This document shows, in pieces, positions 9,856-42,928 of a stretch of DNA of 50,214 nucleotides (the first letter of the stretch is position 1; each line of letters opens with the position of its first letter). The position numbers and the translations under genes were made by a program. Below the pieces are notes generated by a model, which was given only the letters and a program-made list of their open reading frames with translations, did no database searches and was not told the origin of the DNA. Origin of the DNA: a virus; the IMG/VR virus record IMGVR_UViG_3300013126_000048, positions 1 to 50,214 of that record; one strand, written 5' to 3'.

Positions 9856-10148
9856 CACGCACCGTCCTTGTTCGCGCGAAGCGTCTGCAACTCCGCCTCG
9901 AGGGCCTCGCTGCGTTTCTCCGCTTTCGTTGCACGGTTCTCGTTGTACTCCGCGCGCAGGTTCGCTGCGGCATACGCCTGATGATGCCCTTCGAGGGCGT
10001 TGGTCTTCTCACGATCCGCAGCGAGCAGAGAGCTGATCGAAGTGCGAAGGCCGCTGACCTCGTCCTTCAACAGCGTCCCCATCTTCTCGATGCCCGCAAC
10101 ACGCGATTCCATCTTCTTCTTCCAGTTTTCGTCATCATCGATTGACAT
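9855..10148 (-). CDS. Small coiled-coil protein
   Basis: 97 residues, highly charged and helical throughout, with heptad-like spacing (GIEKMGTLLKDEVSGLRTS, then NENRATKAEKRSEALEAEL). No domain or cysteine motif. It precedes the patatin gene with an overlap and could be a partner or chaperone. Start ATG 10148 follows GAGGGTGCC. Confidence 0.6.
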   Translation of the reverse strand: MSIDDDENWKKKMESRVAGIEKMGTLLKDEVSGLRTSISSLLAADREKTNALEGHHQAYAAANLRAEYNENRATKAEKRSEALEAELQTLRANKDGA

Positions 10149-10166
10149 GGCACCCTCACAAAAAAA

Positions 10167-10328
10167 TCAGCGTTGCTTTGCACGAATGAGCGCTTCGATC
10201 TGTTCTGGCGTCAAACCTAGTGTTTCGGCTTTGACCTTGGCCAACGGCGGCCCGCTCTTGTCCTGCGCCAAACCATTGGCGTCGACTTCAGTGACAGAGA
10301 TTTTGACCGTCTTGTCGGTGTCAGTCAT
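10167..10328 (-). CDS. Small unrecognised protein, 53 residues
   Basis: Minus-strand frame from ATG 10328 to TGA at 10167, fitting exactly between two genes. It encodes MTDTDKTVKISVTEVDANGL and ends TLGLTPEQIEALIRAKQR, an acidic start followed by a C-terminal helix. The stop of the upstream gene lies 2 bases away and the ribosome site (GGGAGTTGACC) is good. No family recognised. Confidence 0.6.
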   Translation of the reverse strand: MTDTDKTVKISVTEVDANGLAQDKSGPPLAKVKAETLGLTPEQIEALIRAKQR

Positions 10329-10330
10329 GG

Positions 10331-11020
10331 TCAACTCCCAATGTACCAGCGGTACAACATGCCCACGCGGCGCTCAGCGCCGCCGGCGACGGCGTCCAGA
10401 GAACAGCGCAGAAACAGACCCGGCGCCACAGGTGCGACTGTGGGCATGACGATCGTGTCCTGGTAGATGGGCACGGGCGGCAGGCGGTAGTTCTTCACGT
10501 AGCGCACGAGCTCGATGGGCGTGCCAAGCGGCAACCCATGCAGTGTGTGCAGACCCAGGACGTTGTTCTTGTCCACGACGCTGAAATGGCACATGTCACC
10601 GGCAACGGCGCCGGAGATCCAGAACTGTCCTCCCTGCACCAACATCTGTGTCGTGACCTCGATGTCCAAGATCGTAGTGACGCCCGGCGCGCCGACGAGC
10701 TCATAGCCCTCCAGGCGGGCCTGCTCGCTGGCGCTCAGGAACGTTGGGGCGAAGACAGGGTTGCCCTTGCTGTCGACGTGGCCGCCAGTTGGCAGGGGCA
10801 CGCCGTCGTGAGCCGCGATGACGGCGTCGAGTGCCACCTCCTCGGCCGGTGACAGCGGTGCGCGGAAGCGGAACGTGACCTGCACGTCGTCGAAGTCGAT
10901 GGCGTCGAGGACGACGGTGATGGTAGTTGCCGCCGCGACTTGCGCATGAAGTGCGTCGGCGGCGATGATGCCGTCCGAGGCTGTGAAGGCGCTGCGAGCG
11001 CGGACGTAGTTGCTGCTCAC
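10331..11020 (-). CDS. Virion structural protein, probable fibre/baseplate accessory
   Basis: 229 residues, beta-rich, with TTITVVLDAIDFDDVQVTFR early and a later GGQFWISGAVAGDMCHFSVV followed by NYRLPPVPIYQDTIVMP. No enzyme motif. The gene is translationally coupled (overlap at 11017-11020) to the large fibre-like protein upstream. It may cap, attach or fold the fibre. Function inferred from context. Confidence 0.6.
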   Translation of the reverse strand: MSSNYVRARSAFTASDGIIAADALHAQVAAATTITVVLDAIDFDDVQVTFRFRAPLSPAEEVALDAVIAAHDGVPLPTGGHVDSKGNPVFAPTFLSASEQARLEGYELVGAPGVTTILDIEVTTQMLVQGGQFWISGAVAGDMCHFSVVDKNNVLGLHTLHGLPLGTPIELVRYVKNYRLPPVPIYQDTIVMPTVAPVAPGLFLRCSLDAVAGGAERRVGMLYRWYIGS

Positions 11021-19418: not shown

Positions 19419-21410
19419 CTAGCGCACAACCACGCGCCCCAGTTTTTCCGCAGCGACGTCCACGTCGACAGCGGGGAGAACAACACTGTCACGAACATCC
19501 GTGAGCACGTCCTGCATGTACGATGCGAACTTGCCCACGAGATTCTTACCTGCCCCGTAGAGCGCCAACCCCGACAAGAACGCCATCGCCGGGTGATCCG
19601 ACGAGTACTGACCGACGCGATCGACCAGCTGCTTGTGAATTGGCTGGTTGGGGTCGTTGACGGGATAGCCTCGACGGAGGCGTGAGTCGTAGTCGTGGCC
19701 CAGCGCGGCGACCAGTGCGGCCGAGCCAAGCACGGGAAGGCCCGCGCCGTACTCGCTGGCACGCTTTACTGCGTGAAGTTCCGTGAGCGTGGGGATGTCG
19801 ACCCCCTCCTCGGTGCGGTACTGCGCGCCGGCGCTCGGGCGAAGGTGCTGATAGCCGAGCAGGGCGCCCGTACCCAGAGCCAGCGGCTTGAGCACCGACG
19901 GGATGTTCGGCGACAACAGCTTGTACGCGCCACCGAGCAGAGCCGCGCCGCCAACCATCTTCATCAGCTGCTTCTTCGCGATCTCGTCGTGAGCATCGCG
20001 CGCAGCGCCACGGGTGGTCTGGTAGAGTTGGCCCGTGTTCGGGTCCGTCACGTGAAGCGTGTCGGTCCACAGTGGCTCTTCTTTCCGGAAATCCTGGGGG
20101 ATCAGCGAACGCGACAGGTAGTCGCCGATAGTGGACCGCTTCTCCAGGTACTTCTGCGCCTGGGCGGCGATCTCTGGGCGCACGTTCGACGCGCGGATGT
20201 CGAACAGCTGCGACTGCATCACCTGGTCAAGAAGCTGCGGGTGCTGTGCGTAGAGGTCGAACACCTGACCCTGCATGGCCACGCACGCGTCGAGCGTTTC
20301 TTCGGAGATGTGCGCCCCTGGCGCAAGTCGCGCCACCATCAACCGGATGAACTCCGGGGTAGTCAGGATGACGCCGGCCGCCGAAAGCGTCGACAGCGTC
20401 TCCGCAACAGGGTGCTTGGCGAGGGTCTGGATCGTCGTCGGGTCCATCTCGGGCATGCGCTGCAACGCCGGACGGATGGTGCGGTGGTACTGCTGGACGT
20501 TACGCGCCTCGGCCTCCGAAAGCGGTGACGTCTTGAAATCCACGGGAACACCGCGGATCGTCTTGTCGATGTCCGACAGCTTCTGGATGGCCGCGCGCTT
20601 CTCGTCGACGCGGTCGAGGTAGTCCCCCGAATCCGCGGCAGACCGGATGTTGTAGACGCCGTGCTCGGCGACCTTCTTGAGCATGTAGCCCGTCTGATCC
20701 GCGGGACGCACAACCCAGGAGATGTCGAAGAACCGTGGCGACGGGTTCAACGCACCGGCGCGCAGGCCAGACTTGTGCACCTGGCGCATACCGTTCTTCA
20801 GGTGCTCGCAGTACTGCTTGCGCGTCGGGGCGCGGTGACCGCAGATCGTGCAGACGTCGTACTTGATGCGGCAGCCCATCGACACGGCCGGAAAGTCACC
20901 GTCGGCGATACGCTCGGCGAGATCCGGCGCCTTGGCGTTCTCCACACCGATGAGCAGTTCGACACGGTGCATCTGCGGGTTCCAGAACGCCTTGAGGACG
21001 TCGCCGCAAGCCTTCAGCGGATCAGTGTTCTGGTGGTGCCGGTAGACCTTGCCGTGCTCCTCGAACGAGAGGTAGTGCTGCAGCAGCGTCTCGTCCTGCG
21101 AAACCCATGCGCCGTTGTCTGCGCGACAGCAGCCGCACGTCGGCTGCATCCCGGGCTTGTAGGCGTACTCGTTGAACCCGTCGCCGTTGCGATTCAGGTC
21201 GTAGCGTTCGTAGGCGCCCAGGGCCAGCACGAGGACGATCGTCGTCCCCGGCTTGGGCTGCACCGACTTGATGTAGTCCGACGCCTCGCTGGCCGTCTTC
21301 GTCGAAAAGGACTCGCGCAACGGCCGGCCGTTGGCGCCCCAAAGGAGCACCGGCTGCACCGTGGCTTCACCCGTGGCGAAGTGATCGTCGAGGTCGTAGA
21401 CCTTTCTCAC
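19419..21410 (-). CDS. Candidate prohead protease with long C-terminal extension
   Basis: 663 residues from GTG 21410, overlapping the previous stop (GTGA). Residues 45-200 fit the phage head-maturation protease pattern: YERYDLNRNGDGFNE, a His-rich strand (GKVYRHHQNTDPLKACG), AFWNPQMHRVELLIGV, then DGDFPAVSMGCRI, where the Ser would be the nucleophile and an upstream His its partner. A CxxC/C-H cluster (CTICGHRA...YCEHL) follows and may bind zinc. Residues 250-663 are a long helical extension with membrane-like Gly/Ala/Leu segments (GGAALLGGAYKLLSPNI; ALGTGALLGYQHL) and several K-[TVF]-A motifs. Its place upstream of the capsid gene supports the call. Confidence 0.6.
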   Translation of the reverse strand: MRKVYDLDDHFATGEATVQPVLLWGANGRPLRESFSTKTASEASDYIKSVQPKPGTTIVLVLALGAYERYDLNRNGDGFNEYAYKPGMQPTCGCCRADNGAWVSQDETLLQHYLSFEEHGKVYRHHQNTDPLKACGDVLKAFWNPQMHRVELLIGVENAKAPDLAERIADGDFPAVSMGCRIKYDVCTICGHRAPTRKQYCEHLKNGMRQVHKSGLRAGALNPSPRFFDISWVVRPADQTGYMLKKVAEHGVYNIRSAADSGDYLDRVDEKRAAIQKLSDIDKTIRGVPVDFKTSPLSEAEARNVQQYHRTIRPALQRMPEMDPTTIQTLAKHPVAETLSTLSAAGVILTTPEFIRLMVARLAPGAHISEETLDACVAMQGQVFDLYAQHPQLLDQVMQSQLFDIRASNVRPEIAAQAQKYLEKRSTIGDYLSRSLIPQDFRKEEPLWTDTLHVTDPNTGQLYQTTRGAARDAHDEIAKKQLMKMVGGAALLGGAYKLLSPNIPSVLKPLALGTGALLGYQHLRPSAGAQYRTEEGVDIPTLTELHAVKRASEYGAGLPVLGSAALVAALGHDYDSRLRRGYPVNDPNQPIHKQLVDRVGQYSSDHPAMAFLSGLALYGAGKNLVGKFASYMQDVLTDVRDSVVLPAVDVDVAAEKLGRVVVR

Positions 21411-21847
21411 GGCAGGACCTCTCCGATCAGGGACATGATGTACTCGCGGCCGAGCAGCTGACACCGCTCCGCCGCCAGCTTGCTCTCTCCCTCGAGCATC
21501 GGCAACTGCTCAAGCAGGACTTCGTCCACGAAGACGGCCGCGGCGATCTTCGGCAGGAGGTCCGCGAGGTGGTCTGGCGACGCGGCGGTCTTGGCGCCGA
21601 AGTCCGCGTGCGCCGCGTGGAGCTGCATGACGGTGTCGACCACGCCCACCGCCATGGCTTCCTTCTGGGCCAGGCCGTCAGCGGCCCGTGTGCCGCGAGA
21701 AACCTCGCGCAGGCGCTCGTAGGCGTCGTAGGCGGTACCGGCGATCTTGATCTGCGCGTCCAGGAGGTCGTCGCCCTCGAGGGGCTGCGCATCAAGCAGG
21801 GCGGCGGTCTTCACCGCCTGGTACGTGGAGGCGTAGACGTGCGTCAC
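21407..21847 (-). CDS. Small helical head-region protein
   Basis: 146 residues from GTG 21847 (VTHVYASTYQAVKTAALLD). The frame extends upstream but overlaps gene 21850-22092 with Arg/His-rich nonsense, so this start is preferred. K-T-A motifs occur twice (AVKTAALL, GAKTAASP), with LPKIAAAV and ESKLAAER besides. Helical; no domain. It precedes the candidate protease with an overlapping start. Confidence 0.58.
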   Translation of the reverse strand: MTHVYASTYQAVKTAALLDAQPLEGDDLLDAQIKIAGTAYDAYERLREVSRGTRAADGLAQKEAMAVGVVDTVMQLHAAHADFGAKTAASPDHLADLLPKIAAAVFVDEVLLEQLPMLEGESKLAAERCQLLGREYIMSLIGEVLP

Positions 21848-31706: not shown

Positions 31707-32297
31707 TTACAGCAACGGCACCATCATTCGACGCGCGTCGTCCAGGTGGCGCTGATCCTCGAGAAGCGAGTTCTCGATGAGGATGCGCAGGCCGGCGTTC
31801 TCGCCGCACGCCGCCAAGATGTCCCGCTGCCCTTGGATGAGCTCTTTCTCCGCCTGCATGATGTGCATGAACATCTCACTGAGCGTGCCTGTGGACGGCA
31901 CCTTGCTGACCTGGACCTCGGGTTCGCCGCCCAAGGCAGTGATCTTCATGGCGAGGTCGTAGCACGCGGTGCGCTCTTCTTGCATGTGCCCCTGGAAGTG
32001 CTCGTACACTGCGTCCCGGAAGTGCGATCGAACGCGATCGCCGTAGTTGATGTACATGAGCACCGCCGTGTACTTCAGCTTCAGCGCTTTCTGCAGCAGC
32101 TTCAGCATCTGCTCCTGTGGCACCGCGAACAACCCTTCTTCGAGCGAGACGGCCAACGGGTGCGTGCCTTCCGACGCCGTGGGCTGGGGCAGCTCCGGTG
32201 GCGCGGCCGTGGCCGGCGCAGGTGCGGCAGGAAGCGCGTCCGGGGGTGGTGCGGCCACCATGGCTGCGATCTTCGGGGGGAGGACGTAGTTGCTCAT
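31707..32297 (-). CDS. Ferritin-like four-helix protein
   Basis: 196 residues. Residues 1-50 are a Pro/Ala linker. Residues 58-196 fit the bacterioferritin/rubrerythrin fold in order: helix A (LKYTAVLMYINYGDRV), helix B (EHFQGHMQEERTACYDLAMK, followed by ALGGEP), helix C (LSEMFMHIMQAEKELIQG), helix D (ENSLLEDQRHLDDARRMM). Helix C Glu and the helix D His are kept. The helix A Glu appears to be Lys or Tyr, and helix B has H...E order instead of E..H, so diiron chemistry is uncertain. Coupled by ATGA to the polymerase fusion. Possible roles: iron storage, DNA protection or a scaffold; unproven. Confidence 0.6.
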   Translation of the reverse strand: MSNYVLPPKIAAMVAAPPPDALPAAPAPATAAPPELPQPTASEGTHPLAVSLEEGLFAVPQEQMLKLLQKALKLKYTAVLMYINYGDRVRSHFRDAVYEHFQGHMQEERTACYDLAMKITALGGEPEVQVSKVPSTGTLSEMFMHIMQAEKELIQGQRDILAACGENAGLRILIENSLLEDQRHLDDARRMMVPLL

Positions 32298-35200
32298 TTG
32301 ATCTCCACTTGGTCTTGCAGGGTGATCTCACCCCGGTGATACGCGGCCAACGCTTCAGCCTTGGTCTTGAACCGGTGCACCTTCCCGCCGGCCTTGGCCG
32401 ACTGCGTCGCCAGATGCACACCCAGGACCGCTTCCATCGTTGGCGCAACCATGAGCTCGTCTTTGCTGCGGTCGCCGAAGATGAGGTTCGATAGCGTCAT
32501 CTGCTTCACCTCGTGAACGGCCGAAGGCAGCGCAGGCGTGTGGACCTGGAACGTGTCGCCGTCGTAGTCGGCGTTCATGCCCTTCTCGATGAACGGGTTG
32601 ACGCGGATCGTCTTACCTGGTGTCGGCACAGCGTACGCGCCGATGATGTTGTAGCGGTGCAACGATGGCGCACGGTTCACCATCACAGGGCGCTCGGCGA
32701 TCTCGGCCATCAAAGCGTCACGCGCAGCGGGGTGGCGCTTCTCCACCATCTCGTTCGCCTGCACTGCGCTGAAGCCGCGGCGTACCAGCCGCGCCAGGAT
32801 GAACTTGCTGAACATCCCCCACAGCATCTCCTCGGGGACGCCCACTTCGTCCATGCCCAGCGACCCGTCGGGCGCGATGGTGCCGCGACCAGAGAAGTCC
32901 TGCTGCCGCTTGAGGAGCTTCTTCTGGAAGTACGAGCTCTTCGGCGTCGTCTTGCCCGTGAGGTGCTCGATGAACCCCTTGACGTTGCGCTTCTGCAGCT
33001 TCGGGTTGTCGCTGTCCTGGGTGCCGATCACGGCGCCCACAGCGTTGAAGAGATTCTGCCGCAACTTCGCGTGCTCATCGGGAGGGAGCAGGCGATCCTT
33101 CACCTGCGCGTGCAGCGCGTTGTTGTGCAACATGGCGCTCTGGTAGAGGTAGTTCGAGTCGCCGACGACGAGCTCGCCGCCGCTCATGCCGGGCAGGATG
33201 GGTCGCATCACCGGCGGCAGCACGGGCAGCTTCGACAAAACGTACGCGTCGCCGGGTTGCAGCTTCGCCGCCTTCAAGGCCTCGAGTGCCTTGATCTGCT
33301 TGACGACATCGTCCAGCTTGGACGCTGTCACCGTCTTGACCTGCTCCCGCAGCTTCGCCAACTGCGTGTCGACGTCGATCTGGTTCAAGCGCTTCTTCAA
33401 CGCAGCGCCACCCTCTTTGGCGTGGAACTCATCCATCGCCGCGTTGGTCATACCCAGCAAGCGGCGCGCCGGCTCGTGGAACACCGGGTTGAGCAGAGGT
33501 TCCGCCAGATCGACGTGCGACCACTTCGTGCCCGACGGGCCACCCGTGACCGCGGGGTCGAACAGACCGCCGCGCTCAGGCTCGAGGTTCTTGGCCTTGA
33601 CCAACTTCTCGTTCTGCACGGCGCCAGACGACATGCGCATCACGTCGTTATCCGTCAGCGGCCGCAGTGTCGCCGTGCTGCCCTTCTTCTCGAGCCGGAT
33701 GCCCGACGCCTGGATCATGTGCTCGAACTTGTCGTAGGCGAAAGACGTCTTGAGCGGCGGCAGAGGCAGACCGAGCTGCGCCGCACGCCAGAACGCGTCG
33801 TTCTTCTGGCTCTTGAGAATCGACGTCTCCTTCAGCACATTGCGTGCGTTGTGTGCCACCAGGCCGTTGAACTCCATGCCGCCGATGCCCTTGGCACCTT
33901 CGTCACCACCTTTGGTGGGCTGTTGGTTGACGTCGTACGCGCCGGTACCGCGAGCGGAGAAGTTCGAATCCGTCGTCTTGAACAGGCGCAAGGTGTACTG
34001 TGGCCCAACGAGCACGCCCTTGATGTGCTTGCCCGATACCGGGTCAAAGACCGTCTCCTTGTCCTTCACGCCGTGCTGCTTCAACAAGTCCTTGGCCCAT
34101 TGAACATTGTCCCGGCCCGTGAAGTTCTCCATGATGATCGGCTTGCCGGTCTTCTCGGCCACCTTGCCCACAGCAGTCTCGATGATCTGTGCGGGGTTGA
34201 TGCGGGAGATGACGCCGGCCGACGTGTAGAGGATGTCGATGGGCTTGCCACCCTCGTCGCGCACCATCTTGGCGTCAGGGACGATGTGGCTGATGACACC
34301 CTTGTTGCCGTAGCGTCCAGCGAGCTTGTCACCCACACGCATGGGCTCACGCGTCTTGATGGTGACGACCACACGCTTGTCCGCCTTGTAGACGTCGATG
34401 ACCTCGCCCTCGAAATCGTGGTCCCACGTCCGCACTTCCTCGCGGTAGGGGTTGGCCAGGGACTTCTTGAGGTTGCCCAGCAAGGCGTCCGTGGCGGAGA
34501 GCTTGGTCTTCCGCACGGCGGCGATGAGCAGGTCGTGCGGCATGACCTTCTCGCCCTTCTTGATGACCCCGTCCGCGTCGAGATGACGGTACATCTCGGA
34601 GGTGTACTTGGCGCCGTAGTAGAGCCGGTGCAGCTCGCGCCGCAGCGTCATGTCCTGATCGACGTCCATGACCTCCTTGTACATGTGCTCCGACGTCAGC
34701 TTGACGGCGGCGCCCTCTGAGATCACGACAGCGTCGTTGGAGTTCAGGCCGTAGTACGCCATGTAGCCGACGCGCATGTTGCGGCCGAGGGCCAGCTCAC
34801 CATCCCGCGTGAAGTTGGAGTCCGCGAGCAGCTGATCTTCCTTCACATGGTCGCCCGGCTTCACCGTGACGTTGTGGTGGAGGTAGGTCTTCGAGGCGAA
34901 CGGAAAGTTCGTGTCGTACGGGATCTTGATGAGGCCGTCGTCCGCCTTCTCCGCGGCCGACTTCTCGTGCCAGAAGTCGTCGATGTAGTCCTCGAACTCC
35001 GACCACGTCAGAGTCTGCATGCTGCCGAAGCACCACTTCGGGACGTGCTTCTTGTAGCACTCGATGGCCTCGTCCGCCGACGAGAAACCCACCATCAGCT
35101 TGTCCTCGTCGTGGGTGCCGTCCTTCTTCAGCTGCTTTACGCAGTACACCTCGGCGTAGAACCCGGGGTCCTTCAGGTAGATGTCGACGGTCTCGCCATC

Positions 35201-37441
35201 ATGCCCGCGGGTCTTCGGGATGTGTCCGTAGGCCGCGAACATCTCCTTCTCCCAGGGCTCACCGGTCGCCTTGTTCACACCACGACGGATGTCGCCCTTC
35301 TCGAGCTCGATCTTCATCTTGATGCCCTTGATGGTGATCTGGCGCTTGGGCTCACCAGCGAACTTCTCCATCTCGGGTTTGGGGATGAGATACCTGGGCG
35401 CTGACGCCGTCTTCGTTTGGTACAGCAACTCTTCAGGCACACGTCGCGCAACAGCGTGCGTCGCCCCCTGGTCCAGAAGTTTCGCCAGTCGATGACGTCC
35501 GTCGAGAAGCGAACCATCCCGCGCGCGAACCAGCACCGGGTAAGATGTGTCCGCGTCGCGATACTGGTCTGCGTTGAAGCCTGACGCCGGATCACGATCA
35601 ACGTGATCCTGCAGGCCACTCAGCTCAACCGACTCAGTCGGCAGGTGTTTGGTGGCGTCCCACAGACGGTGGACGTCGAACGTCTCACCGGTGGCGGACG
35701 TGTGCGTGTGTTCGCCCGCGTGCTTCCGCGTCCCCGTGGGGTCGATGTAGATGTACTGGCTGTCGACCTTGACGACCTTGCCGCTGGTGGGGGCCACCGG
35801 CACCACCAGCTTGCCGAGCTCGCGCTCGAAGCTCGAGAGCTGGTCCTTGCCGCCGCTGAACAGCTTGCGCGCACCAGCCTGCACCCACGGGACCTGTCGA
35901 TCCACGAGAGGGAGCGCCTGCGTCTGCATCTTGCTGCCCATGGTGGCGCGGTTGCCTTGGATGGACTCCATCATGGGGATCAGGTTCGACGTCGGCGAAT
36001 AGAGCTGCGCCGAGTGGTAGAGCTCGTAATGCACCTGCGATGCGGGCACGTGTTGGACGTGGCCGTCCTTCATGGCGTCGACCAGGCCCGTCATCTTCTG
36101 ACCAGGAAACGCCACGGCGGTGCTGGCCATCTGCTTGGCCGACAAGAGCTCGAACTTCCCCGACGCCAGGTGGCGCACGGGGGTGTAGAGGTTCCCCTTG
36201 TCGTCGCGGTGCGTCAGCATCGACGCGCGGATGTCGACGCCGGCCTTGAACGACTCAGGCGTGCGCACCGGGTCAAGGATGCCCAGGTGCGTGGGGTGCA
36301 GCTGCCGGGCCTCGAGCGGGATGGCGCGGTCAGATGAGATGCCACCCTCGCCAAGAGACGTAACCTTGACCGCCTGGTCGACCATCTCCATGGGGTTGAT
36401 CTGTGTCGGGATGGCGCTGAGCTGCGAGCCGGTGAGGAAGCTGCGCACGCCGGCCGAGAACGGTGACGCCGGCATGATTTCCCGCAGCGTGATCTTGTTG
36501 ACCGCGCGCCCCTTGGTCTTCATGGCCAAGGCCCGTGCGTCGAGGCCGATACGCTCCTTGATGAAGTCGTCGACGGAGTGGAAGGTCTTGAACGCCAGGC
36601 TGTCGCGGTCATCGACGTCGTCGCCACTCTTGTAGACCGACAGCAACTTGTGCGACGCGTCCAGGATGGCCTGCGGTGTCACCTTGTCGTGTGCGTGCCC
36701 CAGCGTCACCGCATTGACCTCGGGGTCCATGCTGGTCTGCGCGAAGGCGCCGTGGATGGCGGTCACACGGTCGTCCATCGACCCTGCCGTCTGTTTGGCG
36801 GGATGGATGATCTTGCCGTACAGTTTGTCGAGCGCCTGGTCCTCTTTGCCGATGAACGACCGCTGGTTTTCTTCCGCAGTGCCTCGGCCCCAGGACTTCG
36901 CGATGGTCTCGTGCGCCACACCGAGGCGCCGCAACACCGGATAGAGCGGGATCGTCGTCGTGCCGTACTCCATGTACGGGTGACCCTTCTTCGCGTCCAA
37001 GGACAGACGGAAGTTGGACCCCTTCGACAAGTTGAACGACGTCTCGAGCTCCTCATTGGCGCGACGGCGCGTGTACACGCCGGGCTTCATGCGGATCTGG
37101 TTGGAGACCTGGTACTCGTTGCCATCGAGAACGAAGGTGTGTCGTTCCGTGAAGTACGGGAGGTTGAGCAGCGTGAAATTCTTCACGCGCTCGATCTCCT
37201 TACCCGACGAGTCCTTCATCACGAGCGTGGCTCGCACGGGCTCGTGCAGCGAAGAACCCTCGAGCAGCGCCTGCTTCTGGTCGTTGGGCCCGAACTCACG
37301 CTCCACTACGTGTGGGTCAACGAGCTCGATGGTCTTGTCCCGCAGCGTCAACGGAAACGCTTTGACCAAGCCCTCCACGGCACGGGTTCGGATTTGCTTT
37401 CGGCGCGTCGCCGCGTCGGTGAGGACGGGGGTGAGTGACAT
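32294..37441 (-). CDS. RNA polymerase beta / beta-prime N-terminal fusion with inserted domains
   Basis: 1715 residues. Beta part: LPYFTERHTFVLDGNEYQVS near 94, HPTHLGILDPVRTPES near 382, NRATMGSKMQTQALPL and GDKLAGRYGNKGVISH near 1035 (both active-site lysines kept). Beta-prime starts near 1265 (EPERGGLFD, then WSHVDLAEPLLNP). Clamp-helix region NYLYQSAMLHNNALHAQV, DFSGRGTIAPD, NRAPSLHRYNIIG and the catalytic NADYDGDTFQVH near 1622 follow. It stops about where plastid rpoC1 ends. An insertion of about 225 residues (600-825) is annotated separately. The beta-prime zinc ribbon is absent and the beta flap is very short. Start ATG 37441; the frame runs open further upstream but is antisense to a plus-strand gene. 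Confidence 0.92.
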   Translation of the reverse strand: MSLTPVLTDAATRRKQIRTRAVEGLVKAFPLTLRDKTIELVDPHVVEREFGPNDQKQALLEGSSLHEPVRATLVMKDSSGKEIERVKNFTLLNLPYFTERHTFVLDGNEYQVSNQIRMKPGVYTRRRANEELETSFNLSKGSNFRLSLDAKKGHPYMEYGTTTIPLYPVLRRLGVAHETIAKSWGRGTAEENQRSFIGKEDQALDKLYGKIIHPAKQTAGSMDDRVTAIHGAFAQTSMDPEVNAVTLGHAHDKVTPQAILDASHKLLSVYKSGDDVDDRDSLAFKTFHSVDDFIKERIGLDARALAMKTKGRAVNKITLREIMPASPFSAGVRSFLTGSQLSAIPTQINPMEMVDQAVKVTSLGEGGISSDRAIPLEARQLHPTHLGILDPVRTPESFKAGVDIRASMLTHRDDKGNLYTPVRHLASGKFELLSAKQMASTAVAFPGQKMTGLVDAMKDGHVQHVPASQVHYELYHSAQLYSPTSNLIPMMESIQGNRATMGSKMQTQALPLVDRQVPWVQAGARKLFSGGKDQLSSFERELGKLVVPVAPTSGKVVKVDSQYIYIDPTGTRKHAGEHTHTSATGETFDVHRLWDATKHLPTESVELSGLQDHVDRDPASGFNADQYRDADTSYPVLVRARDGSLLDGRHRLAKLLDQGATHAVARRVPEELLYQTKTASAPRYLIPKPEMEKFAGEPKRQITIKGIKMKIELEKGDIRRGVNKATGEPWEKEMFAAYGHIPKTRGHDGETVDIYLKDPGFYAEVYCVKQLKKDGTHDEDKLMVGFSSADEAIECYKKHVPKWCFGSMQTLTWSEFEDYIDDFWHEKSAAEKADDGLIKIPYDTNFPFASKTYLHHNVTVKPGDHVKEDQLLADSNFTRDGELALGRNMRVGYMAYYGLNSNDAVVISEGAAVKLTSEHMYKEVMDVDQDMTLRRELHRLYYGAKYTSEMYRHLDADGVIKKGEKVMPHDLLIAAVRKTKLSATDALLGNLKKSLANPYREEVRTWDHDFEGEVIDVYKADKRVVVTIKTREPMRVGDKLAGRYGNKGVISHIVPDAKMVRDEGGKPIDILYTSAGVISRINPAQIIETAVGKVAEKTGKPIIMENFTGRDNVQWAKDLLKQHGVKDKETVFDPVSGKHIKGVLVGPQYTLRLFKTTDSNFSARGTGAYDVNQQPTKGGDEGAKGIGGMEFNGLVAHNARNVLKETSILKSQKNDAFWRAAQLGLPLPPLKTSFAYDKFEHMIQASGIRLEKKGSTATLRPLTDNDVMRMSSGAVQNEKLVKAKNLEPERGGLFDPAVTGGPSGTKWSHVDLAEPLLNPVFHEPARRLLGMTNAAMDEFHAKEGGAALKKRLNQIDVDTQLAKLREQVKTVTASKLDDVVKQIKALEALKAAKLQPGDAYVLSKLPVLPPVMRPILPGMSGGELVVGDSNYLYQSAMLHNNALHAQVKDRLLPPDEHAKLRQNLFNAVGAVIGTQDSDNPKLQKRNVKGFIEHLTGKTTPKSSYFQKKLLKRQQDFSGRGTIAPDGSLGMDEVGVPEEMLWGMFSKFILARLVRRGFSAVQANEMVEKRHPAARDALMAEIAERPVMVNRAPSLHRYNIIGAYAVPTPGKTIRVNPFIEKGMNADYDGDTFQVHTPALPSAVHEVKQMTLSNLIFGDRSKDELMVAPTMEAVLGVHLATQSAKAGGKVHRFKTKAEALAAYHRGEITLQDQVEIK
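34965..35640 (-). other. Insertion in the beta subunit: ParB-like and InPase-like (polyvalent) domains
   Basis: Within the polymerase fusion, between beta segments matching the VVKV...IYIDPTG strand and the IPYDTNFPF...KTYLHHNVTV stretch. First comes a ParB-like segment (YPVLVRARDGSLLDGRHRLA near residue 632). Next is QTKTASAPRYLI, which carries the local K-T-A motif. Then comes a domain strongly resembling the inorganic-pyrophosphatase (InPase) domain of phage polyvalent proteins: GDIRRGV...EPWEKEMFAAYGHI, GHDGETVDIYL, EDKLMVGFSSADEAIECYKK. The acidic motif D-G-E-x2-D resembles the pyrophosphatase D-x-D-x2-D. Domain names come from recall of the families. Confidence 0.85.
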
Positions 37442-39030: not shown

Positions 39031-40776
39031 TCACATCGGTTGGGGTTGTCCGCCGGCCATCTGAGCGCGGGCCTGCATGGCCTGTGCATTCTGCTGCTCT
39101 TCCAAGCGCTGCACAACCACGGCGTACATGACGGCGTCCTCGACCTGCAAACCGTGCATCTGCGAGCGGCGCGAACCCGGATCCAGCTGCATCAGCTGCT
39201 GCACAATACCGTCTGCCGCAGCGATGACGGCCTGCTGGTCGTAGTTCAAACCAGCCTGGCCCTGGACCTGCTGCTGCACCTGCTGCGCCAGCGTGTTCTG
39301 CATCTTCTGCATCTCCGCCTGGAGCTTCTGCTGGAACTTGGCCTCGTCCAGAGCTTCCTGCAGCCGCTTGTTGCGCTCCGAGTCCAGATCCAGGCCCAGG
39401 CGCTCAGCCATCGTGGTCAGCGACACCACCGGGTACTGGCCGCCAGCACCGGTCGCCAGGCTGATGATGGTCTGCTTGGTCTCGGTGTCATCGACCATCT
39501 TCAACGGAGCCAACTTCGTGTTGGTGGTCTCCCAGCTCAAAAACTTCGAAATCTTGTCGGTGTACCACTGCAACAGGTCGTTCATGTCGTCAGCGTGATT
39601 CTGCGTCTGGTTCTCGATCAGCCGCAGCGTGGCCTCCATGCCGGCCTTCGTCAGTCCGCCGTACAAGAACTCCTGCGGCACGCCGAGGGCCGCCATGATG
39701 TCCTTGTTGGCTTCCTGCAGCTCGCCCAGGGTGAGCATGGCGCGGCCGTCGCCGCCCATGCTGGCCACGCCGAGGGGCACAGGCGCGAACATGATGTGCA
39801 GCGGGTCGCGGCGCCAGCGCTTGACGTTCTCTTTGAGCTCGTCCTGCCAGCGTGCGAACGAGATCATCTGCGTGATGTCTTGCTGCCCCTGCTGGACCGG
39901 ATGAAGGATGCGCATGGGCACAACGTGCTCGAGCGCAATGGCTTCGTTGGCCTTGCGCAGAACCATCGTGTAGAGGAACAGCTTGAGCGTCGACGCCAGC
40001 GGCGGGAAGCCCCACTGCTGGTCGATGCCCGACGGCGAGGCGACTTTGCTGTGGAAGATAGCGTCGGGGGCGAAACGGAAGAGCTTGTTGTCGCGGATGT
40101 TCTCCAGGAACTCCAGCGGCGTCGAGTTGATGAGGTGCTTGGATCCGGCCTTGACCTTGTCCTTCACATCCTGCGGGATGTTGTAGTAGTAGATCGACTG
40201 CCCTGTGATGGGGTTGTACTCGATGTCGATCTGCTTGGGGTCCCACCGGATGATGTGGATCTTGCTGGCGGTCATGACCTTGCGGTCGACGACCTTGCCG
40301 TTGACGGTCTTCTTGCACTTCTTGCAGTGGTAGGTGAACGACAGCTTCTTCAGGTCGAACTTGTAGTCGACGTTGTTGATGTTGGTGAGCGTGTCGCACT
40401 CAGGGCACTTGAGATGACGCACGAACGGGAAGTAGATCGACGAGAAGTGGTTGCCGTAGACGTGCTTGTCCAGGGACGCGCGCAGAAGTGCCCCCTTGAT
40501 CTTCAAGGTCTTGTTGTACAGGTGTTTGTACTTCCGCCGAAGCGCGTCGTTCGAGGTGTCGTACTCGATGTCCGTGATGACGAGCTCACCGAACTTGCGC
40601 AGCGCGGCGTAGATGTGCGCGCTGTTGTAGAGCAGGTACTCGCTCCACCGGAACAGATCCTTCAACTTGCGCGGCGCGAAACCGGTCAGGAAGTCGAACG
40701 CTGGATTCGGATGCGCGGCCGCGCGATTGAACGCGGTCAGGCTATCAGTCGACGAGAAGTCAGCGCTGGTGGTCAT
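39031..40776 (-). CDS. Portal protein with zinc-ribbon insertion
   Basis: 581 residues. Portal features: an N-terminal helical part (LFRWSEYLLYNSAHIYAALR), KTLKIKGALLRASLDKHVYG, the clip/crown section with LGVPQEFLYGGLTKAGMEAT and LRLIENQTQNHADDMNDLL, and a C-terminal Gln-rich coiled coil (LQAEMQKMQNTLAQQVQQ). A four-Cys zinc ribbon (CPEC near 123, CKKC near 150) is inserted in the N-terminal third. The portal is the dodecameric ring through which DNA is packaged. It stands apart from the capsid gene, about 22 kb away, separated by the polymerase block. Confidence 0.78.
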   Translation of the reverse strand: MTTSADFSSTDSLTAFNRAAAHPNPAFDFLTGFAPRKLKDLFRWSEYLLYNSAHIYAALRKFGELVITDIEYDTSNDALRRKYKHLYNKTLKIKGALLRASLDKHVYGNHFSSIYFPFVRHLKCPECDTLTNINNVDYKFDLKKLSFTYHCKKCKKTVNGKVVDRKVMTASKIHIIRWDPKQIDIEYNPITGQSIYYYNIPQDVKDKVKAGSKHLINSTPLEFLENIRDNKLFRFAPDAIFHSKVASPSGIDQQWGFPPLASTLKLFLYTMVLRKANEAIALEHVVPMRILHPVQQGQQDITQMISFARWQDELKENVKRWRRDPLHIMFAPVPLGVASMGGDGRAMLTLGELQEANKDIMAALGVPQEFLYGGLTKAGMEATLRLIENQTQNHADDMNDLLQWYTDKISKFLSWETTNTKLAPLKMVDDTETKQTIISLATGAGGQYPVVSLTTMAERLGLDLDSERNKRLQEALDEAKFQQKLQAEMQKMQNTLAQQVQQQVQGQAGLNYDQQAVIAAADGIVQQLMQLDPGSRRSQMHGLQVEDAVMYAVVVQRLEEQQNAQAMQARAQMAGGQPQPM

Positions 40777-40796
40777 GTCGTCTTTACCTCGAGCCT

Positions 40797-40806
40797 CAAT
40801 CTTAGG
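40797..40806 (-). promoter_or_regulatory. Weak copy of recurrent motif, CCTAAGATTG
   Basis: The minus strand reads CCTAAGATTGAGG, 20 bases before the portal ATG at 40776. CCTA and TT match other copies. Small hairpins (GCCT/AGGC, and GCGG/CCGC near 40817-40830) also lie in this divergent 76-base gap; the plus side holds no clear promoter I can name. Confidence 0.3.
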
Positions 40807-40852
40807 CTGTTCTCACGCGGCGGTATCCGCTAACATCGTCGGGGAAAAAATC

Positions 40853-42928
40853 ATGACACAACTCAACCTCGTTCAGCTGAACAACACGCCCGTTTTCACG
40901 ATCAACAGCACCGACCCCACCTACGCCCGCGTCCATGCAGGCATCTTCGACAAGAAGGGCGGGCGCTGGCTGTTTCCGGCATATGCGCCGTTTGGTCTAC
41001 TGGTCATCGCCGATCTGCGCAAGGTGGCTCCTGCGCTGAAGTACACCCCCGAAGTCGAAACGCACGTGGCGTACTTGGAGCTTATCCCCAAGCTCCTGAA
41101 AGAGCGATCCCTGCCTCCGGGCTTCAAGTTCCACGGCTTCACACCCTTTGACCACCAGCTCGAGGGGTTGTGCCTGATGCTGCACCACCCCCGATTCGCC
41201 TTGTGGTGGGAGCCGGGCTGCGGCAAGAGCCGTGTCCCCTTGGACCTGATGCGTGCGCAGCCTGGTCGACGCACGCTGATCTTGTCACAGAAGGTCACCT
41301 TGGAGAACTGGGTCGAGCAGACGCAGATCCACACGGGTGGGCAGCTGCGCGCCGCTGCTCTCATCGGCGACACCGCGCGGAAGCGCAAGATCTTGCGGAA
41401 CTACGATCAGTACGACGTCGTCGTTGCTAGCTACGGTACCGCTCGCAGCATGGGGCTGCCCCGACTGTACCGTCAGGCTCTCGCGCGCATCAAGGAGCTT
41501 GAAGCGAAGGGCAAGAAGCTGACGGAGTCGGGCCTGGCGACGCTGGTTCGCGCCGTGCGCCGCCTCGGTGAAGCTGACGAACAGATCGAGTACATCCAGA
41601 AGTGGGCTGACGGCATGTCGTTCGCCGATGTGGCCCGTGCGGTGGACGTCCAAGTGAAGACCGCGCCACAGTGGCTCGAGGACATCGACTACCAGATCTG
41701 CCTGGTGGACGAGAGCCAGAACATCAAGGAGTCGTCGTCAGCGCAGACGAAGACAATCGTCGAGCTCGGGAAGAAAGCAGGCCACCGCTACCTGATGTCG
41801 GGCACGCCCACGTCAGGCGACCCACGTCACCTGTACCCGCAGATGCGCTTCTTGTCGCCCGCCATCTTCCCCGAGGATTGGTTGCGGTTCTCAGACCTGT
41901 TCATCGTGCGGTCGCCGTTCAACAAGCGGATCGTCACCGGCTACAAGAACCTCAACATCATCAACGAACGCGTGGCGCGCGTCTCCGACAACAAGAAGAA
42001 GGAGGACTGCCTCGACCTCCCTGAGCGCGTCATCATCGACACACACGTCACGATGACGAAAGAGCAGATCGGGATCTACAACACGCTCATCAACGCCATG
42101 GGCATCGACCTGACTGCCTTCTTCGACAACCCGACAGGTACAGGGCTGGAAATCCAGAATGCCGCCACTCTGTTGAACAAGCTCGGCCAGGTGGCTTCGG
42201 GCTTCGTGCTGGACAACAGCGTGAAGACCAGCATGTGCGACGGCTGCCCGCACCTCAAGCAGTGCGTCGAAAAGAAGATCGTCCCGTACACGCCCGACTG
42301 CAAGGTCGCGCCAGAGCCCGCGCCCGAGACGGTGAACTACTTGAAGGAGAACCCCAAGCTCGACGCGCTGGATGAGATGCTCGACACCTTGCTCGAGGAC
42401 CCGTCGCGCAAGGTCATCATCTGGGCGTACTACCACGCCGAGCTCGACGCCATCCAGGCGCTGCTCGACAAGAAGGAGCTCAAGCACGAGCGCATGGACG
42501 GCAAGGCCACAGGCAGCCTGCAGGAGCGCATCACGCGCTTCAACAACGACCCGAATGTGCGCGTATATTTGGGGCAGATCGCAACAGGCGTCGGCATCAC
42601 ACTCAATGCTGCCACGTACATGATCTACTACAGCCTTGACTGGTCGCTGGAGAAGTACCTACAGTCCATCGACCGGAACTACCGGGCGGGTCAGGTCAAG
42701 AAGGTGACCGTCTACCGGCTGATCGCGAAGGGGACTGTTGACGAATACAAAGCGGCCGCGCTGAGTCAGAAAAAGGACCTCAGCACGGTGTTGACGGGCA
42801 AGCTCGCGTGCGTGTCATGTGCGAAGCGCATGGAGTGCTTGCAAGAGAACGTCGAGCTCTACGACCCCGGCTGCCTCTACCAGCGGTCGGCCAAGCGGAA
42901 GATCGCCAAAGCGGAGTTGCTCAAATGA
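40853..42928 (+). CDS. SNF2-type DEAD-like helicase with two C4 modules
   Basis: 691 residues from ATG 40853. Superfamily 2 signs: Walker A WWEPGCGKSR (118-127), TLILSQKVTLENW (motif Ia-like), DESQ (286-289, replacing DEAH/DExx), MSGTPTSGDP (316-), and a C-terminal helicase half with VIIWAYYHAELDA, YLGQIATGVGITL and QSIDRNYRAGQVKKVTVYRL. The last is close to the SNF2 Q-x2-D-R-x2-R-x-G-Q pattern. Two cysteine modules have identical spacing, C-x2-C-x5-C-x11-C: residues 462-483 and 653-674. Both end Y-x-P-x-C. They probably bind metal. SNF2-type phage helicases act on DNA in replication, recombination or repair. It overlaps the next gene (ATGA). Confidence 0.88.
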   Translation: MTQLNLVQLNNTPVFTINSTDPTYARVHAGIFDKKGGRWLFPAYAPFGLLVIADLRKVAPALKYTPEVETHVAYLELIPKLLKERSLPPGFKFHGFTPFDHQLEGLCLMLHHPRFALWWEPGCGKSRVPLDLMRAQPGRRTLILSQKVTLENWVEQTQIHTGGQLRAAALIGDTARKRKILRNYDQYDVVVASYGTARSMGLPRLYRQALARIKELEAKGKKLTESGLATLVRAVRRLGEADEQIEYIQKWADGMSFADVARAVDVQVKTAPQWLEDIDYQICLVDESQNIKESSSAQTKTIVELGKKAGHRYLMSGTPTSGDPRHLYPQMRFLSPAIFPEDWLRFSDLFIVRSPFNKRIVTGYKNLNIINERVARVSDNKKKEDCLDLPERVIIDTHVTMTKEQIGIYNTLINAMGIDLTAFFDNPTGTGLEIQNAATLLNKLGQVASGFVLDNSVKTSMCDGCPHLKQCVEKKIVPYTPDCKVAPEPAPETVNYLKENPKLDALDEMLDTLLEDPSRKVIIWAYYHAELDAIQALLDKKELKHERMDGKATGSLQERITRFNNDPNVRVYLGQIATGVGITLNAATYMIYYSLDWSLEKYLQSIDRNYRAGQVKKVTVYRLIAKGTVDEYKAAALSQKKDLSTVLTGKLACVSCAKRMECLQENVELYDPGCLYQRSAKRKIAKAELLK

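Follow-up and report, generated by a model that had tools for sequence, protein, structure and literature searches.

The window, the whole stretch of 50,214 nucleotides that was analysed, is a 50-kb virus record in its entirety and carries the genes of an RNA polymerase (RNAP) on its minus strand (Table 1). The first of these is a single intact open frame of 1715 codons in which the β-subunit is fused to the N-terminal half of β′. Pfam matches along the protein follow the order Rpb2_3, InPase, Rpb2_6 and then, within β′, RNA_pol_Rpb1_1 and RNA_pol_Rpb1_2. RNA_pol_Rpb2_3 thus lies upstream of an insert and RNA_pol_Rpb2_6 downstream of it (E=1.2e-48), whereas the β′ catalytic motif NADYDGD is found at residue ~1623 of the fusion protein. 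With the Rpb1_5 match of the second RNAP gene added to Rpb2_6, Rpb1_1/2 and NADYDGD, the catalytic motifs of both β and β′ are present. An AlphaFold model of residues 1-1190 has a mean pLDDT of 83, and the PDB structures closest to it in fold are all β-subunits of bacterial RNAP. The first-pass annotation had taken the protein for an RNAP β-subunit, which is correct as far as it goes, yet it is a β/β′-N fusion and the rest of β′ is encoded by a separate gene.

The two RNAP genes are separated by a gene for a ferritin-like protein, which overlaps the end of the β/β′-N gene. On the opposite strand, a DNA helicase gene (40667-42928, plus; phrog_62, E=5e-91) adjoins the portal gene.

Table 1. Positions of the polymerase genes, their neighbours and the parts of the insert in the window
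Feature	Position	Strand	Basis or remark
Portal protein gene, upstream of the RNAP gene	39031..40776	minus	30% identical to Arash Gp204, E=2e-98
RNAP β fused to the N-terminal half of β′	37441..32294	minus	1715 aa, ATG at 37441
Whole inserted cassette, residues ~571-836	34934..35731	minus	Between strands YIYID and LIKIPY
ParB-like stretch, residues 580-680	35402..35704	minus	phrog_17560, E=3e-7; alignment with phage ParB-like proteins
KTA motif linking the ParB-like part to InPase	35405..35413	minus	KTA density in the insert zone
InPase (polyvalent-protein type I pyrophosphatase), residues 699-820	34982..35347	minus	Pfam PF18823; predicted fold
DGETVD acidic metal-ligand motif (D748, E750, D753)	35183..35200	minus	Conservation alignment
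E779-D780-K781, second conserved acidic/lysine site	35099..35107	minus	E/D at 779 and K781 in all rows
KSAA linker motif after InPase	34952..34963	minus	K-x-A-type motif at the same place in relatives
Ferritin-like protein gene	31707..32297	minus	Pfam Ferritin, E=6.9e-14
β′ C-terminal part, 599 aa	29232..31031	minus	Pfam RNA_pol_Rpb1_5, E=9.7e-20

In an alignment with relatives in which 0-36 residues occupy this place, the cassette stands out as ~265 extra residues. In the AlphaFold model (residues 1-1190), the loop that receives them is flanked by predicted strands at 563-567 and 838-841, and by sequence the insertion site corresponds approximately to residue 742 of E. coli β. InPase-like and ParB-like segments had been noted earlier between conserved β segments, and this is borne out: LLDGRHRL (35509-35486), GHDGETVDI (35206-35180) and DEDKLMVGF (35110-35084) lie in one minus-strand frame within a single open reading frame, flanked by Rpb2_3 and Rpb2_6. 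The insertion therefore stands, but the extent first assigned to it, 34965-35640 (~225 residues), is slightly too small, as the cassette covers residues 571-836 (nucleotides 35731-34934).

Profile search, structure prediction and fold search all agree with the InPase identity proposed for the second part of the cassette. The match to PF18823 scores 104.7 bits (E=4.5e-30) against a Pfam gathering cut-off of 26.8; the domain is modelled by AlphaFold with pLDDT values of 90-98, and a fold search of the PDB places inorganic pyrophosphatases in all the top ranks (E=4.7e-5; OB fold). By sequence, the best PDB match of the RNAP-borne InPases is the virion portal 9b41 (E=2.8e-21), followed by cellular pyrophosphatases. 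Chance similarity was ruled out by the E-values and by the recurrence of the domain. A search of these phages for the canonical soluble pyrophosphatase, PF00719, gave sub-threshold echoes only.

The acidic residues of the domain are well conserved. D748 and D753 are invariant, and position 750 is Asp or Glu in all RNAP rows and in 48 of 50 others, although the motif DGETVD differs from the DGDPxD that cellular enzymes have. Conservation around E779-K781 is inflated, because the outside InPase comparison sample was partly picked by the DEDK pattern. Mapping onto E. coli K29/E31 is ambiguous, in that alignment to PDB sequences shifts it by two, and we therefore claim only the D-x-[DE]-x-x-D and D/E-x-K sites. 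The InPase domain is under purifying selection, with a dN/dS of 0.02-0.07 among close-clade relatives, about equal to that of flanking β; between the window and L002, a pair with dS near saturation, the value is 0.37. Its GC3 of 0.91 is in line with the surrounding gene. The InPase most probably hydrolyses phosphoanhydrides, with pyrophosphate (PPi) as the first candidate substrate.

The assignment of the preceding stretch as ParB-like holds in part: it is backed by a motif and by the small family phrog_17560, but not by a Pfam match or a confident model. Its alignment with phage ParB-like proteins is centred on AD.SYPI.V..DG...DGRHRLAKA and includes the DG.HR motif and flanking strands of the ParB/Srx superfamily. 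One of the aligned proteins is annotated as ParB (cd16393) and another is a virion protein of PA5oct. Searches of Pfam, NCBIfam and PDB sequences returned no match to the stretch, and tblastn found no relatives of it in IMG/VR. Its model has pLDDT values of 35-59 and a weak fold match to a ParB/Srx protein of phage EL (E=0.17). For comparison, the DdrB-like ParB domains of polyvalent proteins have a lineage-specific D/N after strand 2 and a helix with a tyrosine (PMC5512222).

Among the polymerases examined, the ParB-like part is present in the window only. Its GC3 of ~0.64-0.66 is the lowest of any 101-codon segment of the gene, the values elsewhere being ≥0.80. Because GC3 is low there while that of the InPase matches its surroundings, the composition suggests that the ParB-like domain was placed before the InPase by a recent gain. 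Restriction to one contig and an aberrant GC3 could also be the marks of an assembly chimera, but we regard this as barely credible, as the gene is one intact frame of 1715 codons and 12 other distinct contigs also have an InPase in that loop.

Scans of IMG/VR provided 117 non-redundant polymerases with both flanks, from which a β tree was built without the insert. The same loop has 0-36 residues in 102 of the 117, whereas it holds an InPase in 12, a GNAT acetyltransferase in two and some other domain in one. With the truncated L004 added to the 12, RNAP-borne InPase is found in 13 distinct contigs, the window included. At least five changes at this one site are required on the β tree. The β loop is thus an insertion hotspot, because the same site is empty or filled by InPase, GNAT or another domain. 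The GNAT domains (L027:9708-10094 and L112:5690-6085) are on separate branches of the β tree. At L009:9708-10145, and also in L010 and L011, the loop carries a domain of ~146-148 residues (LWVGHSRGADRL), for which Pfam and NCBIfam gave no match above cut-off. In L047, a second stretch (10113-10415) follows the InPase in the same loop.

Elsewhere in its RNAP β gene, L004 has an intein-like insertion of 352 residues (L004:3177-4232) at RTPE^SF, and other β loci spanning 5.3-6.3 kb may hold further intein-like insertions. The cassette might accordingly be viewed as the remnant of a self-propagating intein or homing element, or as a neutral insertion in a permissive loop; the L004 insertion, the homing endonucleases near the RNAP gene in relatives and the foreign composition of the ParB-like part are compatible with such an origin. 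The strong purifying selection and the conserved active site make it very improbable. An intein or homing element was rejected specifically, as the searches detected neither a splice domain nor an endonuclease domain in the insert and the InPase is under purifying selection.

InPase is present in two β clades and is kept on RNAP throughout one clade of 10 rows. In the InPase tree, the domains of the window's clade group together (100/99), separately from those of L074 and the L028/L047 pair. The polymerase of L074 is inside the window's β clade, yet its InPase is nearer to non-RNAP InPases, which suggests replacement. When all RNAP InPases are forced together, a single origin is not rejected (AU p=0.28). 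From the trees, two or three captures of InPase by RNAP are likely, though not proven.

The domain also occurs on other proteins. The large genomes with InPase in RNAP (five records, 168-194 kb) contain exactly one InPase each; a second copy was found neither in these genomes nor near the β loci. Of 25 relatives without an RNAP InPase, seven have the domain in another gene and 18 have none, a count in which fragmentary records may hide some. Two of these seven genes, at L281:1902-5258 and L283:1788-4967, encode homologues of the window's putative head-maturation protease (19419-21464; 35% identity, E=9e-43 and 9e-34) to which an InPase is attached. In the L104 genome, sister to the L028/L047 pair, a longer open frame ends in what seems to be a stand-alone InPase gene, for which the L028 insert is the closest match (47%, E=4e-35). 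In Pbunavirus and other myoviruses, the InPase is found on portal or minor head proteins.

Several known systems share parts of this arrangement. The virion RNAPs of the cultured Salmonella phage Arash and of Vibrio phage D69, which belong to a system comprising Arash and Vibrio phages D69/D148/D181, are β/β′-N fusions like that of the window, with 36-37% identity. Arash also has a separate β′ C-terminal part (Gp216, to which that of the window is 31% identical) and the same gene order, portal - small gene - β/β′N - ... - β′C. Unlike the window, neither Arash nor D69 has an insert at this loop. In Arash, the β protein Gp206 has the highest spectral count among virion proteins and the β′ protein Gp216 is also abundant, with the authors allowing for carry-over of abundant proteins (PMC10585845). 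Packaging of the InPase-bearing polymerase is a matter of homology only, because the Arash polymerase is without the insert.

Polyvalent-protein InPases (PF18823; PMC5512222) resemble that of the window in Pfam family, conserved acids and presence on virion or injected proteins, but their carriers are large polyvalent proteins or the portal, whereas that of the window is inside RNAP β. Similarly, the portal of the Pbunavirus phage Pa193 (gp19, PDB 9b41) is a packaged protein with a C-terminal InPase (E=2.8e-21), though the host protein is not a polymerase; gp19 residues 529-765, the InPase part included, have no density (PMC11042391). In the Bacillus phages AR9/PBS1, the β-subunit of the virion RNAP bears an HD phosphohydrolase domain (PMC7598289, PMC7824862). 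As in the window, a phosphohydrolase domain is thereby carried on a β-subunit, but the HD fold is unrelated and located at the N-terminus of a split β fragment, and in the AR9 annotation the HD-bearing gene is a join of six segments. The mReC polymerases of Caudovirales (Weinheimer and Aylward 2020, PMC7481178) are, by their description, from metagenomic tailed phages, and their β and β′ resemble cellular RNAP closely enough to be detected by profiles, as do those of the window. Within the portion of that account considered here, the markers are MCP/TerL of VOG11186/VOG01069 together with the mReC RNAP clade, and inserted enzyme domains, in contrast to the window, go unreported. Polyvalent proteins in the sense of Iyer et al. 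2017 bring several effector domains into the cell on one injected chain; in the window, ParB-like, InPase and RNAP parts share one chain, which would resemble them if it is injected. The literature searched, outside which lie most subscription papers and preprints, contained no earlier report of a pyrophosphatase inside RNAP β.

On balance, and with somewhat better than even confidence, we favour a reading in which the polymerase of the window is a virion RNAP that at the same time brings passenger enzymes into the cell upon infection and in which a loop of the β fold before the double-psi barrel has been turned into a docking site for passenger domains. The gene would encode the β/β′-N subunit of a virion-type multisubunit RNAP, which would be packaged in the phage head and reach the cell by injection along with the DNA. 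It would bring its passenger, the InPase with the recent ParB-like part in front, into the cell, where, as infection begins, the InPase would hydrolyse PPi or a related phosphoanhydride nucleotide. We infer packaging in the phage of the window, catalysis, the substrate, and carriage (not a service to transcription in cis) as the reason for the fusion. A carrier role is preferred to a need in cis because one loop holds several enzymes and InPase is on other virion proteins too. The alternative homes of InPase, the portal-RNAP synteny with Arash, the hotspot and the conserved acids point the same way. Counting against it are a possible single ancient origin of the RNAP InPases with later losses (AU p=0.28) and the 10-row clade, since persistence of InPase across that clade would fit a role in cis as well.

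In such a role, already proposed in the first-pass annotation, the InPase would hydrolyse PPi as it forms at the polymerase's own active site and thereby draw transcription forward. For polyvalent InPases, PPi clearing as well as hydrolysis of nucleotide signals was proposed by Iyer et al. 2017 (PMC5512222), and the HD phosphohydrolase on virion RNAP β in AR9/PBS1 provides a precedent (PMC7598289). InPase is moreover the commonest insert, kept across the 10-row clade, and its acids are conserved. Nevertheless, relatives have GNAT or nothing at the same loop and carry InPase on unrelated virion proteins, and we consider clearing in cis rather unlikely as the reason for the fusion. Host pyrophosphatase, too, is abundant, which speaks against it. 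Use of the insertion for packaging or DNA contact, the other option raised in the first-pass annotation, is speculative, although the orthologous polymerase is packaged in Arash virions. Less probable still is that the InPase, like GNAT in relatives, serves anti-defence or host takeover by acting on host nucleotide signals or proteins instead of PPi. In its favour, Iyer et al. 2017 (PMC5512222) suggested nucleotide-like substrates for related InPases, the loop is taken by GNAT domains in relatives and InPase is found on many virion proteins, but the fold and ligands match true pyrophosphatases and the window yielded no defence-related context.

Parts of the insert are flanked by K-x-A/G motifs, notably KTA. 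Across the polymerase family, the density of KTA in the insert zone is 16 times that in the rest of β. The proteins of the window, many of them structural-type, contain 13 KTA against 4.2 expected, ~3 times what composition predicts. It is our conjecture that the K-x-A linker motifs may be maturation-protease sites. Tentatively, and with somewhat less than even confidence, the one β loop could be a socket for exchangeable effectors (pyrophosphatase, acetyltransferase, ParB-like and others) and virion RNAPs modular delivery vehicles. Cleavage of K-T-A-type linkers by the capsid maturation protease might free the effectors, making the polymerase both an early transcriptase and a polyvalent effector precursor.

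If true, this would join virion RNAPs and injected polyvalent effectors, ideas so far kept separate. The window offers a natural case of a multisubunit polymerase with a pyrophosphatase in its own chain, so that the old question of whether local removal of PPi aids transcription becomes directly testable, and it names a loop of RNAP β that tolerates whole enzyme domains.

Two further observations concern the window and its relatives. Between 17903 and 28590 (minus), KTA/KTG is found at linkers of several structural-type proteins, where it may serve maturation cleavage or targeting. An RNAP relative with 43% identity lies in L274, a 64-kb contig of Desulfovibrio sp. An276, and may be a clue to the host.
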